From NCBI RefSeq assembly GCF_000019805.1, contig NC_010525.1:1600618-1664617 (forward strand): a stretch of DNA of 64,000 nt, given 5' to 3'. The translations under genes and the position numbers were made by a program. Below the pieces are notes generated by a model. That model saw only the letters and a program-made list of their open reading frames with translations, made no database searches and was not told where the DNA came from. Source of the stretch: Pyrobaculum neutrophilum V24Sta (lineage in GTDB: Archaea > Thermoproteota > Thermoprotei > Thermoproteales > Thermoproteaceae). Below are positions 44,083 to 53,020 of this stretch, in pieces (position 1 is the stretch's first letter; each line of letters starts with the position of its first letter).

Positions 44083-45219
44083 TCAGCACCTCACCCTCTC
44101 CCCTATCTTCCCGCCCGGCGCCCTCACGCCTGTGACCGCCCTATCCTCAATCTTCACAATCACGTCGAAAAGCACGTCGAGGTCGTATAGGTCTCTAAGT
44201 GACACAACTACGGCGCGTCCCGTCCTAGCTAGCTTTAGGAGAGTGCGCACCGCCGTGTAGAGCAACTGGATGCCATATAGCTTTGAGAACGTCTCAAGCC
44301 CTCTGATGAAGATCACAGGCGCTTTGGAGGTGGCCAACGCGGCGTAGAACTCGCCTAGGTCTAGACCTACGTCGATGGTTTCTACGCCGAATTTTTCAGC
44401 GTATATAGACCCGGCTCCTGAGATCGATATGAGGAGGGGTTCCACTCCGCGGTCGCGCAACGACCTAGCCACATTCAACATATGCCAAGTCTTCCCCGCC
44501 CCAGGCGGCCCCACGAAGGCGTGTAGAAGCCCTTTGTAAATCCCACCGACCACCTCGTCGATACACGTCAGCGTCTCTAGCCTCTCCACTTGCCTACTTA
44601 CAGAGCTTGGCGCTATAAACAGCAGGCCGGCCCCCTCCAGTATGACATACGGCATGGTGTAGCCCGCCCTCCCCCCGCGTATCTTCCTCACGACGGCCTC
44701 TCTCACGGCGCCGTAGGGGTAGACCTCGTAGAACAGCTCAATGACGTTGTCCGCCACATAAGCCACCCTCTGGGCCACTTCCCTCTCCGCCGTTAGAAAG
44801 ACGTCAACCCCGCTCTGTTTTACAGCTCTATAGATAATGTTGTGGAGGATGTCCAGCCCCCCGCCCGCGGCGAGGAACTCCGTCACGGAGTCTATCACCA
44901 GGGCCTGCGGCTTTTCGCGAGCCACAGCGTCCAGCAGGGTGTTGAAAAACGCCTCCGCGCCGGCCAACACCGCCTCCCAGTAGACCAGCTTCCCGCCGAA
45001 GTTGTAGCCCAAAGCCGCCATATTCCTCCTAAAAGTCTCCTCATCCTCAAAAGCCGACACCCAAAACACCCTATCGTAGCTGTTGTACGTGTACCACGCC
45101 GCAAAGGTGGTCTTCCCAGCGCCAGGCGGCCCGTAGACAAGGGTGACCCCCCTAAGCATCATAGAGCCGATTGCGGCGCGTTCTCTAAAATATTTTTTGG
45201 TGTAGCCTCCTATCCGCAC
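44083..45219 (-). CDS. dual P-loop RecA/KaiC-type ATPase in pilus operon
   Basis: Protein of 378 aa with two RecA-like halves: Walker A GPPGAGKTTF near residue 31, with ALVIDSVTEFLA as Walker B, and a second Walker A GPPGAGKTWH near residue 235, with FIRGLETFS. It resembles a tandem FlaH/KaiC protein. FlaH in archaella is a single-domain KaiC homologue that acts with the motor ATPase, so this may regulate the pilus motor (inference). It overlaps the upstream GspF-like gene by one base. Confidence 0.8.
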   Translation of the reverse strand: MRIGGYTKKYFRERAAIGSMMLRGVTLVYGPPGAGKTTFAAWYTYNSYDRVFWVSAFEDEETFRRNMAALGYNFGGKLVYWEAVLAGAEAFFNTLLDAVAREKPQALVIDSVTEFLAAGGGLDILHNIIYRAVKQSGVDVFLTAEREVAQRVAYVADNVIELFYEVYPYGAVREAVVRKIRGGRAGYTMPYVILEGAGLLFIAPSSVSRQVERLETLTCIDEVVGGIYKGLLHAFVGPPGAGKTWHMLNVARSLRDRGVEPLLISISGAGSIYAEKFGVETIDVGLDLGEFYAALATSKAPVIFIRGLETFSKLYGIQLLYTAVRTLLKLARTGRAVVVSLRDLYDLDVLFDVIVKIEDRAVTGVRAPGGKIGERVRC

Positions 45220-46007
45220 TATATCTTGGTTATGGAATCGAATACTAGGTAGAAGACCACGCCCACTACGGGCGTGTACACCAGCCCTATGAGCGCCATG
45301 AGGGTTAGGGGGTCCAGGGCGAGGCCGCCTATCTGCAGTGCGCCGAGTGGGCTGAAGGAAAGCGCCACTATGTAGACCATTATGGGGAGGAGCATGACGG
45401 CTACGACGAAGACTTCGAACATTAGGGAGAGTGACCTAACCAGCGACTGGGCTCTGACTTGTTTGGCCCTCAGCATCCAGTCCAGCCTAGCTAGGAGCAC
45501 CAGGTCGACTCTCTGGGTTATCCTGGCAGCCTTGGTCAACACCTCCACGGTTTCTCTATAGGTGGGGCTTGGGACCCTCGCCGCGCTGTTTCTCAGGGCC
45601 TCCTCGGGGCTTGACCCCATGACGACCATCTCCCTCGCCGCCAGGGCGAGCTCTCTAGCTATGTATCTATCGTCCTCCACCTCGGCCAGCCTCGTCACCG
45701 CCCTCCCCAGGGGCACCCCCGCCGCGAGAAGCGGGAGGAGGACCGAGAGGGTGTATACGAAGTTGTTCTCGAAGTGGCTACGTCTTGCGGACACTAGGTG
45801 TACCGGGTATAGGAGGAGGCCGGCGAAGGCGAGGAGGCCGGCTATCGCCGCGAAGGCGGCCCCCGCGGCTGGCCCCAGGAGGAGCAGGCCGGCGGCCCCG
45901 GCCGCGGCTGCGGCGCCGGCGGGGGCGGCCGTCAGCGCGGCTAGGTAGCGGCGGTAGGAGAAGGCGAGGCCGCTCTGTCTATAGAGCTCGTAGAGGAGGC
46001 CCCTCAT
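45219..46007 (-). CDS. GspF/TadC-like pilus membrane protein (second copy)
   Basis: Platform protein (262 aa) with two N-terminal and two C-terminal hydrophobic segments around a cytoplasmic domain containing AGVPLGRAVTRLAEVEDD and MGSSPEEALRNSAARVPSPTY, the T2SF pattern. It overlaps the secretion ATPase by four bases. It pairs with the 47455-48201 protein, as in TadB/TadC. Confidence 0.84.
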   Translation of the reverse strand: MRGLLYELYRQSGLAFSYRRYLAALTAAPAGAAAAAGAAGLLLLGPAAGAAFAAIAGLLAFAGLLLYPVHLVSARRSHFENNFVYTLSVLLPLLAAGVPLGRAVTRLAEVEDDRYIARELALAAREMVVMGSSPEEALRNSAARVPSPTYRETVEVLTKAARITQRVDLVLLARLDWMLRAKQVRAQSLVRSLSLMFEVFVVAVMLLPIMVYIVALSFSPLGALQIGGLALDPLTLMALIGLVYTPVVGVVFYLVFDSITKI

Positions 46008-47482
46008 ACCGAGCCGGCTCTCACCGCCTCTAGCGCCTTCTGGGGGTTTAGGTGGTACTGGGTGAAGATCTTCGCCACGACGTAGGGCGTCGAGTAGCCC
46101 TTCTCCACCATGAGGGCGATGAGCTCCCTCCTCCTGCTGTATTCCTCCCTCAGCTTCTCCAGGGGGACGAAGCGCGTCCTCGATATAGACTCCAGGTGTC
46201 TACTCTCCTCCACCTGCTCCAGGAGGTCTCTTTCCGGGTTCCACCGGAAGACGTAGTGTAGCCGGGGCCTCCCGCCCCTCGCCACGCCCATGTTTTCGGC
46301 GATCTCCACAGCTCTTCTGACGATCTGGCCGCCCACCTTAACCCTCATGATGCGGACAAACACGTGGGCGAGGCCTATCAACATGGGGGGGACGTGCATC
46401 GGCCTGGTGAGGAGGCGCCGCACTGCGTCTTCGATAGTCTCGGCGTGCATAGTGGTGGCCCCCGCGTGGCCTGAGCCGAAGGCTTGGAAGAGGACGTAGG
46501 CCTCCTCGCCGCGGATCTCGCCGACTACCACGTAGTCCGGCCGCGACCTCATGGCAACCGCTAGTAGGTCGAAGGCCGAGACGTCTCTCACGCCCTCCCC
46601 CCTGGAGGGCCTCGTGAGGAGGGCTTGCCAATGTTCGTGGACTATGTTTATCTCCCTGGTGTCTTCGATGGTGAGGATCTTGGCGTCGGGCCTAATGAGG
46701 TATAGGAGGGCGTTCAACAGCGTCGTCTTCCCGGCGCCGGTGGGCCCCACGATCACTATGTTCCTCCCGTAGTCGAGCATAAGCCATAGGTAGGCCACGG
46801 CGTCGGCGGAGATGGTGCCCGTCTTCACCATGTCCACCAGAGTTATCGGCGAGACGAAGTACTTCCTTATGACGAAGGAGGGGCCCCTCGGCGATACAGG
46901 CGGCGTCGCCAGCTCAAGTCTGTAGCCCTCGGGGAGCATCCCCTCAAGTATGGGGTCGGCGTAGGAGACCGACTTGCCCACCAGGGCGGAGAACTTCTGC
47001 ACATAGCTGTCCAGCTCCTCCGCCGTGAGGACTATGTCTGTCTTCAGAGACTCCCACCTGCTGTGCCAGATGTACACAGCGCCGGGTCCGTCGACGTGGA
47101 CATCCTCGATGTAGGGGTCCCTCACGAGGGGGTCCAACACCCCGTAGCCCAGGAGATCCCGCCGCAGGTAGTACAAGAGCTTGCCCCAAGCCCTCTCGTC
47201 GACCTTTATCTTAAACTCGGCGGCCGCCCGCCTAGCCAACTCCTCTAGATACTCCACCCGCCTCTCCCGCGCCAGCTTCAACACGCCGTCTCTAACCTCG
47301 CCCACGTTTTGCACAGCCCGCTTCAGCCTCTGAAGCGTCTCGGCCTCCTCCTTAGACAACGGCGGCTCCACAGCCCTATACCGCCTAAAGCCGTCTCGAT
47401 CCACGTACACAATGGCGTGGACCAGCTCGGAGATCTCGTACTCGTCCAAGATCTCTAGTAGCCCATCCACGCCGGCGCCCAT
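46004..47482 (-). CDS. type II/IV secretion (pilus assembly) ATPase
   Basis: GspE/TadA-family motor ATPase (492 aa). Walker A is VGPTGAGKTTLL near residue 247, the Asp box is TIEDTREINI, Walker B is VVVGEIRGEEA and the His box is GHAGATTMHAETI. It powers pilin insertion with the two platform proteins beside it. The start overlaps the preceding platform gene by 28 bp; a GTG 12 nt downstream is possible. Confidence 0.92.
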   Translation of the reverse strand: MGAGVDGLLEILDEYEISELVHAIVYVDRDGFRRYRAVEPPLSKEEAETLQRLKRAVQNVGEVRDGVLKLARERRVEYLEELARRAAAEFKIKVDERAWGKLLYYLRRDLLGYGVLDPLVRDPYIEDVHVDGPGAVYIWHSRWESLKTDIVLTAEELDSYVQKFSALVGKSVSYADPILEGMLPEGYRLELATPPVSPRGPSFVIRKYFVSPITLVDMVKTGTISADAVAYLWLMLDYGRNIVIVGPTGAGKTTLLNALLYLIRPDAKILTIEDTREINIVHEHWQALLTRPSRGEGVRDVSAFDLLAVAMRSRPDYVVVGEIRGEEAYVLFQAFGSGHAGATTMHAETIEDAVRRLLTRPMHVPPMLIGLAHVFVRIMRVKVGGQIVRRAVEIAENMGVARGGRPRLHYVFRWNPERDLLEQVEESRHLESISRTRFVPLEKLREEYSRRRELIALMVEKGYSTPYVVAKIFTQYHLNPQKALEAVRAGSV

Positions 47483-48201
47483 AGCCCCACCGCCAGAACC
47501 ACAGCCCCAACCCCCGCGTGGAGGAGGCCAGCCCTCGCGCTGTTGTAGACAACCCTCCCCACCACCAGCCCACCCACGAGGACTCCCGCAAACCCAGATA
47601 AATACAACGCCCGGAGGACCGCAGACCTGTCTAAGACAACCGCCTTGATTCCGCCCTGGGCCGGGGCCGCCGCCGTCAGCTGGGCCAGCTGAGGCAGAAG
47701 CATGTAGATCAACACGTCTGTCAACACGGCCAACACGACGACTATTGCGTAATACAGCGCCACGTACGGCCTGAGCTGCGAGGCGACGCTCTGGCGGAAC
47801 TCCACCACCGTGGCGAAGCTCCTAGCGGACACGTCTAACACCTCGGGAAGCTTGGCGCCGCTACGCGTAGCCTCGGTCACAATAAGGGCAAACCTCCTAA
47901 AGTTGGGGGACGGGATCTCCCCCGCCACCCGCCACAGAGCCTCCTCCACCGTAAGCCCCCCCATTTCAGACAGAGTTAGGACGTGCCTGAGCACGTCGGC
48001 CATAGGCCTAAGCGCCAGAGCCGCCGCAGACTCCACTGCCCCCCTCAGGCTCAGCCCCGCCGACACGGCGTCAGAAAGCACGCGCAGGACCTGGGGGATC
48101 TGCCCCTCCAGCCTGTAGACGTACACAGCCCTGCGCCACCCGCCAAACCCAACCCCCGCCAGAACCAACCCAACCAAGACAAAAACTAGAAAGTCGGACA
48201 T
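47455..48201 (-). CDS. GspF/TadB-like pilus membrane protein (first copy)
   Basis: Platform protein (248 aa) with an N-terminal membrane segment, a cytoplasmic T2SF-like domain (VSAGLSLRGAVES, SEMGGLTVEEALWRVA, SGAKLPEVLDVSA) and C-terminal hydrophobic segments. ATG 48201 is chosen because CTTATATAAAGG lies about 23 nt upstream; the longer frame from 48315 would run through the pilin's 3' end. Confidence 0.84.
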   Translation of the reverse strand: MSDFLVFVLVGLVLAGVGFGGWRRAVYVYRLEGQIPQVLRVLSDAVSAGLSLRGAVESAAALALRPMADVLRHVLTLSEMGGLTVEEALWRVAGEIPSPNFRRFALIVTEATRSGAKLPEVLDVSARSFATVVEFRQSVASQLRPYVALYYAIVVVLAVLTDVLIYMLLPQLAQLTAAAPAQGGIKAVVLDRSAVLRALYLSGFAGVLVGGLVVGRVVYNSARAGLLHAGVGAVVLAVGLWAPAWMGY

Positions 48202-48230
48202 GTAAAAAAGAAGGCGGCCTTTATATAAGC

Positions 48231-48701
48231 CTAACTCGCGGTAACCGTAACCGCGAACTCGGTGCCCTTCAACGTCACTATCTTGATGACGTAGTCGTAT
48301 CCGGCGGTTACGCAACCCGTGGGAATTGAGAACTGCACCTGCTGTAGCTGGCCGGGGTACAACGTAGTTGCGGTGGCCGTTGTAGAGCCCGGCTTGTATA
48401 CGGTTATACCGCTAGCCAGACACAGCGGGCTTAGGGTGCCTGGCTTTAGCACATATATCGTTGATAGGGTGACGTTGTCTCCGCCGAGGTTGCGTATGTA
48501 GAGGACGCCTGAGGCCGCGGATGAGGATAGAGACGCCGCCTCTACCTTCAGCTTTTCTGAGGCGGCCATCTGCTCGGCTTGGCTTGTGGCTTTTGTGACG
48601 TAGCCGGCGAACCAGAGGTATACCAACACGGCGCCTATCACCGCCACCACTATCAACAACACGGCGGCGACAATCGGCTCCAAACCTTTCACCTTGTTCA
48701 T
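48231..48701 (-). CDS. archaeal type IV pilin
   Basis: Protein of 156 aa with a class III signal: MNKVKG then LEPIVAAVLLIVVAVIGAV, cleaved after Gly by a PibD-type peptidase. The rest is a small Ser/Thr/Ala-rich beta domain with two Cys, typical of DUF1628-type pilins in Thermoproteales. ATATAAATGG lies about 26 nt upstream of ATG 48701, so it has its own promoter. Probably the main filament subunit (inference from size and promoter). Confidence 0.87.
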   Translation of the reverse strand: MNKVKGLEPIVAAVLLIVVAVIGAVLVYLWFAGYVTKATSQAEQMAASEKLKVEAASLSSSAASGVLYIRNLGGDNVTLSTIYVLKPGTLSPLCLASGITVYKPGSTTATATTLYPGQLQQVQFSIPTGCVTAGYDYVIKIVTLKGTEFAVTVTAS

Positions 48702-48767
48702 GGGCACAAGAAACGTGCAACCATTTATATTCTGTGGTGGGGGTTCCGTACTACACAGTGAGGCGCG

Positions 48768-50585
48768 TTAACGCGTTCTTTTCGCCCGGCGTATTGTATA
48801 CGCCACGGCGACGCCGGCAACCACAGCTCCGACGGCAAGCGCCACCGCAGGCGTCGGATCTAGCGTCCAAACCGCCTCGGCCTCTACCGGCCCCGCCACA
48901 GCTATGCTCTTGGTCACAACGCCGTTGATTGCCCACCCGGCGAATGTGTACCTGATGGGGAAGGGGTCCCACACAGCCGTCGGCGCCACCTCCGGCGTTA
49001 TTGTCGTCCCCACGGGGACCCACTGGGGGGCCGGCGCTGTGCCGTATTTCGTACGTAGCCTTACTAGACACTCCATCGTGTAGCGGGGCGTAGCCGATAT
49101 GGGCTTTGTAACTAAAACTGTGGCGTTGGGGGACGTGGCGTTTATGCCTACCCAGCCCGCGAAGACGTATCTACAGCCCGGCGGGGCTTGTGGAGCGCCG
49201 GCCGATACCGCCACGTGGGATCCGGCTGGGTAGTAGCCGGAGCCTCCCGACACGGAGCCCGGCGGAGCGACGTAGACGTAGTACAGCTTTTTCACGGCGT
49301 AGACCGGCTGTTGCGGCCAAACCACCTGGGGGGTATCAACCGAGACCACCACCGCGGTCCCGTTGCCAAGAGTCCCGTTTACAGCCGGCACCGCCCTGTA
49401 TACTGCGGAGGCATAGAGGGGGCCCGCCACCGTGATCTCCTTCACGACTCTGCCGCCCACGGCCCAGCCCTCGGGCATCAGCCGTATATAGCCGAGGGAG
49501 ACCTCCGGCGGCGGGGGGACGCGCGTCCCCGCGGGGAGCCACCCGGCGTACGGCTGCGGAGAAGAGAGCTGGACGTAGTACTCCCTCGTGTATACTGCGT
49601 AGACGGCGCCCGGCGCGGCTGAACTGCTGTTTAAGACGCAACGGGTCCCGTTTCCAAAGTCCAGAATATGCGGCGGCGAGTAGGGCTCCGACGCCTCCTT
49701 GAGCATGCTCCAGACGCCGCAGTTGGTATAAACCGTTAGGTTGACGAGGATGAGGGGTCGGACGCCGGCTGGGGTCTCGTAGGCGATGTTGAGGCTTGTG
49801 GACGAAAGCGCCAGGACGGGCCCCCCCACGTGTTTAGAATAGAGGAGCTTATCCCCTCTATACACCTCTATGTAGCCCGTCGATGTTCCATATATGGTGT
49901 AGGGGCCGTCTAGGGCGACGGCGGTCTCCTTATCCCCGTCTACGTAGGCGAACCTACAGCCGGGACCCACCGCGAAGGTGTAGGCAAGCCCCACCTTGGC
50001 TCTCCTCTGCGCTATCAGCTGAGGCGTGCCCGCGTCTACCCTGTAGAAATACTGCACATCTCCACGTACGACGGAGGCGACGACGCAGTGGGGGCCTGCC
50101 GCGGCGCCCGCCGGATCTCCGCCGATTTTTAACACAGAGACGCCGTTAGGCCCGGCGGTAACTACGTCGCCGCTCATATCAAGGACGTAGGCCACGCCGT
50201 TTAACATAGACATGGCGTAGGGCGGCGCCTTCAGCTGAAATACATATCTCACGCCCTGTGATATGTAAACTCCAGCGGTCTGGTTAACAGCCGCCACGGT
50301 CTGGCAGTCGGTGGCCAAGAGAATAGGCGTAAAATTAAGCGGGTAGAAGGCTCGGAGAGCCCCCCGCGGCGTCACCACAGACACGCCTGCTCCCGTGTAA
50401 AACGCAATACATGTGGGCCCGGGGTAGGCCGGCGCGCCCCCCACATACTGAAGCCGCCCATCCATAGAATACACAGAGAAGCCCATATGCGAAAAAACCG
50501 CATAGCCAGAGCCGTCGCTGAAGACGTAAACCTGTGCAAAAACCAGGGCAACCCCAGCCAGAACTAAAAGAAGCCTCATACCCAT
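48768..50585 (-). CDS. large surface protein with propeller-like and FAGW-repeat regions
   Basis: Exported protein of about 605 aa with an N-terminal signal peptide (MRLLLVLAGVALVFAQ). The first 300 or so residues have short beta repeats suggesting a propeller; then come three units of about 75-80 residues built around a YxGW/FAGW core (PEGWAVGG, FAGWVGINAT, FAGWAINGV), like bacterial surface repeats. A C-terminal membrane segment with basic tail RRAKRTR follows. A TATTTAAGG box precedes the start; ATG 50585 or 50579 is likely. It lies within the pilus cluster. Confidence 0.78.
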   Translation of the reverse strand: MGMRLLLVLAGVALVFAQVYVFSDGSGYAVFSHMGFSVYSMDGRLQYVGGAPAYPGPTCIAFYTGAGVSVVTPRGALRAFYPLNFTPILLATDCQTVAAVNQTAGVYISQGVRYVFQLKAPPYAMSMLNGVAYVLDMSGDVVTAGPNGVSVLKIGGDPAGAAAGPHCVVASVVRGDVQYFYRVDAGTPQLIAQRRAKVGLAYTFAVGPGCRFAYVDGDKETAVALDGPYTIYGTSTGYIEVYRGDKLLYSKHVGGPVLALSSTSLNIAYETPAGVRPLILVNLTVYTNCGVWSMLKEASEPYSPPHILDFGNGTRCVLNSSSAAPGAVYAVYTREYYVQLSSPQPYAGWLPAGTRVPPPPEVSLGYIRLMPEGWAVGGRVVKEITVAGPLYASAVYRAVPAVNGTLGNGTAVVVSVDTPQVVWPQQPVYAVKKLYYVYVAPPGSVSGGSGYYPAGSHVAVSAGAPQAPPGCRYVFAGWVGINATSPNATVLVTKPISATPRYTMECLVRLRTKYGTAPAPQWVPVGTTITPEVAPTAVWDPFPIRYTFAGWAINGVVTKSIAVAGPVEAEAVWTLDPTPAVALAVGAVVAGVAVAYTIRRAKRTR

Positions 50586-50606
50586 CCCAATGGCCACCCT
50601 TAAATA

Positions 50607-52529
50607 CTATGGCACAGGCGCGCCACCGCCGTCGGAGGCGCCCGGCGTGTACCTGCCCACCACGAAATACGGCACACCGCCGCCGGAAGCGGCGCTGAAT
50701 CTCCAACCGCTCTTGCAACTCCCCGTCTTCCAGTCAAATTTGGAGCAGTAGTAGGCGCCGTCTATAGTCGGTATATATGCATCATTGCCTTTCCCGACGA
50801 CGAAGATCAACACAGAATCTACATACCCTTCGAAATAGTCGATCTCTATAGAGACGTTACCGCTACCGCAGTTGGCCGAGGTGCTGTCAAAACGAGGCGC
50901 CGTCGGATACCACGCGTTTAGGGTCTTTCCGCACATGGATATGTAGACCCCGTCGTCGTGCCAAGCGCCGAAGTTAACATCCCCATCCCAGGGGATGTAG
51001 AGTACACCTCTGTATCTAAGGGCGTAGTTAACCCAACCGGAGGAGGTCTGCGGAAGCCACGCCGCGGCCCACTTGGGCGCGGTGTTAACTAAACTCTTAA
51101 TGGAGAAATACGGCGGTTGTGTGGCGCCAAAGCCGTAGGGGTCTGACTGTGTAGACAGCCAGAAGTACGCCGAGCCCACCGACCAGGTGCCTACGTATTG
51201 GTAGCTCTGCCAATTGGGCTGAGTTCCCCACTGGCCTGAGGGGTTGTAGTATATGTCGACTTGTACTCCCCAGTCGCCCCACTGTGGGATCTCGAAGAGG
51301 AGGGGGATCTGCGTCGATCCGCACGTAATGTAGAGCGTCGCGGTGGAGCCGGCGATGGAGGCGCTGGGCTTGGCTCTGACTGACGCGTAGACGGGGTATA
51401 CGCCGGGCTGGAGGGTCGCCGCGGCCGACGAGCCGTTTGAATAGACGGTATAGCTGCCGATGGTTATTTCTAGAGACGAGAGGAAGTTGGGCATGGCTCC
51501 AGAGACCGTCACGGTTGCAGGCGCGCCGCTCACAGAGAGCGTTGCGATCTTTTGATTTCTTAGCTCGACGTAGTAGGGCCCCGTGCCGGTGCTCAAAGAG
51601 TCTGGGACAAGCACTCCAGGTCTCACAGCTACGGCGGCTCCGCCTTGGTAGGGCCCCCACGCCGCGATCCAGCCGTTGAGCTCGTTGTAGCCGCTTAAGA
51701 CGCTACCTTGTTCTGCGGTCAGGGTGATGGTGGCTGGACAGCCGCCGGAGGGCGGCGCTGGGGCTGTCTGCGTGGCCGAGGCGTTTATCAGCTGCACCAC
51801 TATTGGTATTTCCGTTGTCCAGCTGTAGCTGCCGTAGGTCTGCGTAACCACTGCGCCTATTGTGGTAGAGACGAAGGTCGATTTTGCTCTGCACTGAACC
51901 GTCCCCAGGCTGTAGACCCCCGCTTGTCCAGGTCCGAGCGAGGTGGGACCGGCGGAGAAGGCGGAGGGGTAGCAGTCGAGTAGGTTGTTGTCGTAGGTCA
52001 GCGATATGCTGTATTGGAGGGGCGCCCAGCCTGTTGAGTTGTTGTACGCGTTTAGGTACAGCGCTATGTTGACGACGTCGCCGACTTTTTTCACGAAATA
52101 TACAGTTCCGTTTGCCTGTAGCCACGTCGCCGTTGGACCAATGTATACATATAGGTAGGCCAGTTGGGCGTTCTGTCTAACGCCTATGTATTTGTATATG
52201 CCGGGCTTGTCGGGGCAAAGTATCTGGAACTGATACGGCGAGGGGGGGATCCTCTCGTCTATGTAGACCCCCCCTGTTTTGTTAATCGATATGTAGTAGA
52301 GGAAGGGGTAGTTGGGGCCCGCTGCCTGGAGGCGGCATGATTGGCCGTTGTATATCAAGGCCGCCTCTTGGTCTGGCGGAAGTGCGGATTCTCTCACGTA
52401 CTGCACCCCCTGGAGCGTTGCTTGACGTATTGTCTGGTAGTAGTACAAGACAGCTAGCATAAAGACGGCCATCACTACTACGAATATGGCGAAGGCTGCT
52501 ACCGTTGATATGCCGCGTGGCGCCGTCAT
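50607..52529 (-). CDS. giant pilin-like protein with C-terminal PA14-like domain
   Basis: Protein of 640 aa. The N-terminus MTAPRG then ISTVAAFAIFVVVMAV is a class III pilin signal plus membrane helix. About 380 residues of beta-rich, Ser/Thr/Tyr-rich sequence follow. Residues about 417-590 look like a PA14 domain: RYRGVLYIPWDGDVNFG then AWHDDGVYISM, the family's DDG motif. PA14 domains bind sugars. ATG 52529 is fixed by its ATGA overlap with the preceding pilin. A tip adhesin is the best guess. Confidence 0.82.
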   Translation of the reverse strand: MTAPRGISTVAAFAIFVVVMAVFMLAVLYYYQTIRQATLQGVQYVRESALPPDQEAALIYNGQSCRLQAAGPNYPFLYYISINKTGGVYIDERIPPSPYQFQILCPDKPGIYKYIGVRQNAQLAYLYVYIGPTATWLQANGTVYFVKKVGDVVNIALYLNAYNNSTGWAPLQYSISLTYDNNLLDCYPSAFSAGPTSLGPGQAGVYSLGTVQCRAKSTFVSTTIGAVVTQTYGSYSWTTEIPIVVQLINASATQTAPAPPSGGCPATITLTAEQGSVLSGYNELNGWIAAWGPYQGGAAVAVRPGVLVPDSLSTGTGPYYVELRNQKIATLSVSGAPATVTVSGAMPNFLSSLEITIGSYTVYSNGSSAAATLQPGVYPVYASVRAKPSASIAGSTATLYITCGSTQIPLLFEIPQWGDWGVQVDIYYNPSGQWGTQPNWQSYQYVGTWSVGSAYFWLSTQSDPYGFGATQPPYFSIKSLVNTAPKWAAAWLPQTSSGWVNYALRYRGVLYIPWDGDVNFGAWHDDGVYISMCGKTLNAWYPTAPRFDSTSANCGSGNVSIEIDYFEGYVDSVLIFVVGKGNDAYIPTIDGAYYCSKFDWKTGSCKSGWRFSAASGGGVPYFVVGRYTPGASDGGGAPVP

Positions 52530-52924
52530 CTCCCCCAGTAGTCGAAGGTCTGGCCTTGTGCTGTAGAGATCCTGTAGCCGGGGTAGCCATATGGCAGAGC
52601 GGTGTTTATAGCCGCCAATGTGCCCGGCTCCAGAGATGTAGATGTCGAAGCCGCGGCGGCCACGTTCCCCAGCGCGTCTAGGGCGTAGGCTCCGGCGAAG
52701 ACGCACCTAACCTTGCCCATGTTGTAGACCCATATGGTGGCCCGGCCGCTGGCGTTGGTAACCGCCACCACTCTCGCCTCGCAGTACTCCCTCGCCTGCT
52801 CGGCGACCAGAGAGCTCTGAGTCTGGAAGTACATGTTGTAGAAAACCGAGGCGATAAGCACGGCGAAGGTCACGCTTATCACCAACAGCAGAACTGACGC
52901 GATAACTTCCGAAAGTCCATACAT
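52526..52924 (-). CDS. minor pilin-like protein
   Basis: Protein of 132 aa with a very short class III signal: MYG then LSEVIASVLLLVISVTFAV, and a small beta domain with three Cys. It is translationally coupled to the giant PA14 pilin, which suggests the two join in one tip complex. ACTTTATTT lies about 26 nt upstream of ATG 52924. First gene of the pilus cluster. Confidence 0.85.
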   Translation of the reverse strand: MYGLSEVIASVLLLVISVTFAVLIASVFYNMYFQTQSSLVAEQAREYCEARVVAVTNASGRATIWVYNMGKVRCVFAGAYALDALGNVAAAASTSTSLEPGTLAAINTALPYGYPGYRISTAQGQTFDYWGR

Positions 52925-53020
52925 AAGTTATATCAACTCTTCAACAAATAAAGTTTTGTGGTGTACCCCGCTGTCTATAGTGAAATGTAACGCTTAAAAA
53001 TCGATTTTTTACGCCGGGGA

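Follow-up and report, generated by a model that had tools for sequence, protein, structure and literature searches.

A probable PA14-bearing modular type IV pilin and its exchangeable gene module in Pyrobaculum neutrophilum

The window, that is the whole stretch of 64,000 nucleotides analysed here, contains a type IV pilus locus of Pyrobaculum neutrophilum, whose genome is a single contig of 1.77 Mb. All genes listed for the locus are on the minus strand, as are the features within them given below. In minus-strand order, the locus begins with a 132-aa minor pilin (52526..52924), followed by a giant pilin of 640 aa (50607..52529), an open reading frame with three full-length orthologs. The next gene encodes a 609-aa membrane-anchored surface protein with an N-terminal signal and a C-terminal TM helix (48768..50597). 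The fourth gene encodes an UpsA-like pilin of 158 aa and is probably the major pilin (MNKVKG/LEPIVAAV, the slash here and below marking the predicted cut; 48231..48707). It matches the UpsA profile with E 1.1e-7, under the curated cut-off, and arch_flag_Nterm with E 2.6e-4, just above the cut-off of that profile. The machinery consists of a TadC/T2SSF-like membrane protein (47455..48315; Pfam T2SSF, E 1.6e-12), whose real start is probably downstream of the listed TTG, a secretion/pilus assembly ATPase (46004..47482; Pfam T2SSE, E 6.7e-32) and a second TadC/T2SSF-like membrane protein (45219..46007; Pfam T2SSF, E 1.5e-13).

The giant pilin was compared with its counterparts in a number of relatives. 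Thermoproteus sp. UBA157 (G039) is the only one named by a database match; G041 and G042 we take to be Thermoproteus tenax and T. uzoniensis, and G030 is presumably P. islandicum. The gene order in G041 is identical to that in P. neutrophilum, and in G042 the first three genes are oriented opposite to the machinery genes. The original prediction had placed the giant pilin ahead of the pilus machinery, and the ATPase and both TadC-like proteins indeed lie downstream of it on the same strand. A retractable pilus, which it had also considered, has no genetic support; no PilT family was reported in archaea in a published census (PMC4858521).

In the sequence ATGA, the minor pilin's stop codon overlaps the start codon of the giant pilin, as expected from the proposed translational coupling of the two genes. 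The minor pilin has a short leader (MYG/LSEV) followed by a hydrophobic helix, and its matches to Pilin_N and UpsB are weak and under cut-off. Since Lys or Arg is missing at position -2, the P. neutrophilum copy falls outside the strict FlaFind rule. Its ortholog in G041 is 73% identical and coupled likewise, and coupling of giant pilins to small pilins was found at the loci read, across two genera.

The giant pilin starts with MTAPRG/ISTVAAFAIFVVVMAVFMLAV (MTAPRG/ISTVAAF). By the sequence rule, residues 1-6 form a class III leader, MTAPRG, with a predicted cut after G6 (52512..52529); R5-G6-I7-S8 agrees with a FlaFind-type rule, a short leader ending in [KR][GA]. The leader is followed by the pilin helix at residues 7-48 (52386..52511; residues 9-48 in the AF2 model), with a mean hydropathy of 2.67 over the 20 residues after the leader. 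This is the sole hydrophobic or TM stretch of the protein. The giant pilins of the relatives fall into a PA14 type and another type, and 9/9 proteins compared from both types have the motif RG[IL]S[ST]VA. The class III pilin signal predicted earlier is thus present and conserved. Cleavage of the PibD type, on which that prediction depended, has a candidate enzyme in the genome, a divergent prepilin peptidase with a weak A24 match (G000:C1:601154-601423(-), E 0.0019). Its ORF contains LQDVKTREID and GSGYADS; in other members of the genus the A24 matches are better, mostly about 1e-5 to 1e-3.

Between the two types, identity is 27-35% and confined to the first ~240 residues. These include the stalk beta domains, residues 57-250 (51780..52361), which are the sole extracellular part shared with the giant pilins of other Pyrobaculum; the stalk unit is doubled in the other-type proteins. 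A third beta domain at residues 265-414 (51288..51737; AF2 strands 267-413) has no family match in a Pfam scan. It is followed by the predicted PA14 domain at residues about 418-600 (50730..51278) and by a tail at residues 601-640 with low model confidence (50610..50729). The tail ends in the conserved motif SDGxGxPxP, which is retained in 4/4 orthologs although disorder is predicted there.

Searches of Pfam, NCBIfam and PDB with the single sequence of the giant pilin did not return PA14; in the Pfam scan of the 640-aa sequence there was no PF07691 match above the curated cut-off. Orthologs were therefore gathered, and three full-length ones were obtained (74, 53 and 54% identity). A pattern scan of genome contigs gave no match with the single sequence and one record, Thermoproteus sp. 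UBA157, with the ortholog alignment. When the C-terminal alignment of the four orthologs was compared by hhalign with an alignment of 15 archaeal PA14 domains, the match had a probability of 95.6% and E 1.3e-8; another region of the same proteins, used as a negative control, gave 0.4%. In an hmmsearch of PDB sequences with the C-terminal profile, the sole match was the PA14 protein 6QDI (E 1.9e-4), and the best non-family matches of the full-length profile coincide with PF07691 stretches in three other genomes (G079, G093 and G271). PF07691 itself scores 19.6 bits against a 24-bit cut-off in the G042 ortholog (E 8.3e-4) and has no match in the other two.

The AF2 model of the C-terminus, built from the four-sequence alignment, has a pTM of 0.72 and a pLDDT of mostly 73-93 in the core blocks, and predicts a PA14 beta-sandwich. 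In a Foldseek search with this model, almost all of the 50 PDB matches listed are PA14 proteins, including Epa1A (2.3e-6), Epa6A, Cea1, MpPA14, Flo1, an anti-sigma factor PA14 protein, GH3 and GH31; the top of the list from viral proteins likewise consists mostly of proteins named PA14. The best TM-scores are about 0.5, in part because the tail and the loop 456-497, which lies on the putative binding face, are not confidently modelled. The full-length model is poor (pLDDT 60.6), and the corresponding fold search, dominated by tandem Ig-like proteins with poor TM-scores, was not taken as main evidence. Based on the profile-profile, PDB sequence, fold and sub-threshold Pfam matches, the predicted PA14 fold of the C-terminus is well supported. 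The PA14-like domain of the original prediction was therefore recovered by sensitive searches based on orthologs and by structure prediction, although Pfam fails on the single sequence.

Residues H524-D525-D526-G527 (50949..50960) contain the DDG motif noted earlier and correspond in the alignment to the DcisD motif, with which PA14 lectins bind Ca2+ and sugar through two Asp residues (PMC8092209). The pair D525-D526 is invariant in 4/4 orthologs and aligns in the hmmsearch to the DDG of 6QDI. Ca2+-dependent sugar binding via Asp525-Asp526 is plausible from this alignment. Many PA14 domains keep DDG without demonstrated lectin activity.

The gene of the 609-aa surface protein starts 9 bases after the stop codon of the giant pilin. 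Orthologs with 59-69% identity come immediately after the PA14 pilin in G039, G041 and G042, and close full-length orthologs were found only beside PA14 pilins. Distant full-length homologs (34-35%) are present in G043 and G044; in the latter, a DUF2341 protein (L123 8828-10435 (-), E 6.1e-9) lies directly before the homolog, its start being cut by the contig end. Two genomes have remnants of the gene: its 3' end persists as a scar in G030, and in G032 the remnant has a broken reading frame. The protein has a weak match to List_Bact_rpt and, compared by description, fits arCOG05471 as given in PMC4858521.

G030 is a near relative of P. neutrophilum, with 485/492 identical residues in the ATPase and 345/351 in a transporter on the other side of the locus; the flanks of the divergent segment are 98-99% identical at the protein level. 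DNA homology, followed by blastn and DNA alignments, ends at 49017 and restarts at 53006, so that a segment of 4.0 kb (49018..53005) is replaced in G030 by another pilin module. The G030 insert is in the opposite orientation; its minor pilin differs (40%), and its giant pilin, of 1167 aa, lacks PA14. In this module (L021 6456-10880), the giant pilin has a doubled stalk unit and repeated beta domains, for which no Pfam match was found. At the left edge, G030 still has the 3'-terminal 82 codons of the 609-aa gene, with 96% identity. This scar is best read as evidence that a module like that in the window was replaced in the G030 lineage. Other-type modules occupy the corresponding place in three more Pyrobaculum genomes (G028, G029 and G032) and in G040. 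In the ATPase tree of eight genomes, the PA14 type does not form one clade, and well-supported branches force two changes. In sequence, one machine thus carries alternative heads, and these heads presumably have binding functions. A recent transfer of the module from a Thermoproteus was considered and rejected: its identity to the G041 module, 69-74%, is close to the 79% of the ATPase, and inheritance from a common ancestor with subsequent replacement in G030 fits better.

A survey for the same architecture elsewhere found PF07691 matches in 48/300 Thermoproteota genomes. Three pilin-like proteins have PA14 above the Pfam cut-off; the count is a minimum, as only part of the matches was opened. 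In the distant Thermoproteota genome G271 (L079 4143-6221 (-)), a 692-aa pilin-like protein contains PA14 repeats, three by eye (Pfam 1.4e-13), and has no Lys or Arg at -2. The other two are proteins of 483 aa in G123 (L081 4030-5481 (+); PA14 1.2e-8) and 517 aa in G070 (L090 1964-3517 (-); PA14 1.8e-6); after each of them comes another pilin-like gene, encoding about 400 aa. Both also have a prealbumin-like SpaA_4 domain and come from genomes of one family (f16), possibly ammonia-oxidising archaea. The N-termini of all three proteins are unlike that of the P. neutrophilum pilin, which suggests that the fusion probably arose more than once. Apart from these, most PA14 proteins encountered are not pilins: they are GH3 glucosidases (or have the 970-aa length of these), small and soluble, or large and secreted. 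PF07691 matches in Vulcanisaeta-like genomes cover the profile start only, with no DDG seen, and were not counted. Large secreted beta proteins at L070, L071, L072, L073 and L084 cluster with small membrane proteins in conserved clusters; their C-termini have partial PF07691-like matches without DDG, and L070 is near a TadC-like gene.

The giant pilin combines a pilin N-terminus with a domain that is not pilus-specific, the combination that marks a modular pilin. We interpret it as a modular type IV minor pilin that presents a PA14 head and belongs to an exchangeable module, and assign this reading a probability of about 0.72. The leader would be removed after Gly6 by the prepilin peptidase, and the N-terminal helix would pack into a pilus that the neighbouring ATPase and the two TadC-like proteins assemble. 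As synteny suggests, the 158-aa UpsA-like pilin may be the main filament subunit. By analogy with PilA/PilC, the giant pilin most likely has the co-translated 132-aa minor pilin as its partner in starting or capping the filament, and bacterial modular pilins suggest that the PA14 head is probably located at the tip of the pilus. The PA14 domain would be held out by the stalk beta domains, about 200 residues long, and the third domain; it probably binds a glycan of a neighbouring cell, the S-layer or a biofilm via Ca2+ at Asp525-Asp526. The whole module would be exchangeable: relatives combine a homologous stalk with another head at this locus, and in one sister species the module appears to have been swapped recently.

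The PA14 domain could instead be a structural spacer or a binder of protein, such as the 609-aa protein or the S-layer, the pilin then anchoring or decorating the pilus. The 609-aa gene only 9 bases downstream, and its orthologs directly after the PA14 pilin in three genomes, agree with such a role, and PA14 also occurs in enzymes and other non-lectin proteins, DDG being common to enzymes such as GH3 glucosidases. However, sugar-binding adhesins give the nearest fold matches, the Asp pair does not vary, and the partner gene switches along with the head, so that both could be adhesive; we consider this role rather unlikely. It is improbable that the N-terminal helix is an uncleaved signal anchor, which would make the protein a membrane-bound surface lectin outside the pilus. 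Cleavage is a prediction and the peptidase match is weak (E 0.002), but the nine giant pilins compared all retain RG/[IL]S[ST]VA across types with 27-35% identity, two genera show coupling to a small pilin, and some 40 residues make a long helix for a simple anchor. Least probable is another beta sandwich that resembles PA14 by chance, which the missing Pfam matches in the giant pilin and two orthologs and the Ig-like tandem proteins in the full-length fold search might suggest, as the sequence-profile, profile-profile and fold tests are independent yet agree and the negative control is clean.

Modular type IV pilins occur widely in bacteria, and the carbohydrate-binding modules listed for them include PA14 (IPR011658) (PMC8179133, Raynaud et al. 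2021); the InterPro search in that study was based on the IPR012902 motif, and archaea are not mentioned in its text. The P. neutrophilum protein resembles bacterial modular pilins such as PilB/PilC of Streptococcus sanguinis in having a ligand-binding domain grafted onto a pilin N-terminus. PilC is a lectin pilin stabilised by its small partner pilin PilA (PMC9934059), and this couple is the best model for the coupled minor and giant pilins. In contrast to the bacterial proteins, the pilin is of the archaeal class III and is served by an archaeal ATPase/TadC machinery, several beta domains separate the pilin helix from the head, and the head is a predicted one. The PA14 lectins of yeast (Epa/Flo) and MpPA14 of Marinomonas primoryensis (PMC8092209) share the fold and the Asp-Asp motif, whereas their heads are on GPI-anchored or RTX proteins and identity is about 11-18%. 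The tip adhesins PilY1/PilC are likewise large pilus-associated proteins with variable binding modules, which are N-terminal and exchangeable in PilY1/PilC. Unlike them, the giant pilin is itself a pilin and has no DUF2341, the PilY-adhesin domain noted by Makarova et al. that adjoins the 609-aa homolog in G044.

The locus also resembles the clade 4B-like type IV pilus loci of Thermoproteales (PMC4858521), by comparison of its gene content with the text of that paper. Shared with these loci are a single ATPase with a pair of TadC-like proteins, two small pilins, a large protein with a signal peptide, and an S-layer-like protein that has a TM helix at its C-terminus. Makarova et al. (2016) called the large protein of Thermoproteales loci a "minor pilin or adhesin"; their text contains neither "PA14" nor a lectin assignment nor module exchange (PMC4858521). 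Among the papers searched, none combines PA14 domain, pilin and archaea or describes PA14 on an archaeal pilin, and a lectin-like tip adhesin was not found reported for pili of crenarchaea. This agrees with the original prediction, which knew of no such description for crenarchaeal pili. In bacteria, PA14 modular pilins are known (PMC8179133), and an adhesin role had been proposed in 2016 for the large protein of these archaeal loci (PMC4858521). What is new is that PA14 has been assigned in the pilus system of a crenarchaeon, that it recurs independently, and that a whole head module has been swapped in place between close relatives. The original prediction contained neither the exchange in the sister species nor the recurrence of the architecture.

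We tentatively suggest, with considerable doubt, that the pilus end is an exchangeable slot. The head module, comprising a small pilin, a giant pilin and an anchored partner, would be swapped in situ by recombination between close relatives. This would give alternative ligand specificities (PA14, another beta-sandwich and perhaps DUF2341) on one conserved machine, possibly driven by pilus-attaching viruses or by self/non-self recognition. The PA14 head with its conserved Asp pair is a concrete candidate adhesin with a predicted metal site and ligand class, and the cassette swap in a near-identical relative is a natural experiment in which the same machinery carries a different head. Together with the unrelated pilin-like proteins that carry PA14 in two or more further lineages, the P. 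neutrophilum pilin would extend the bacterial strategy of grafted modules to archaea.
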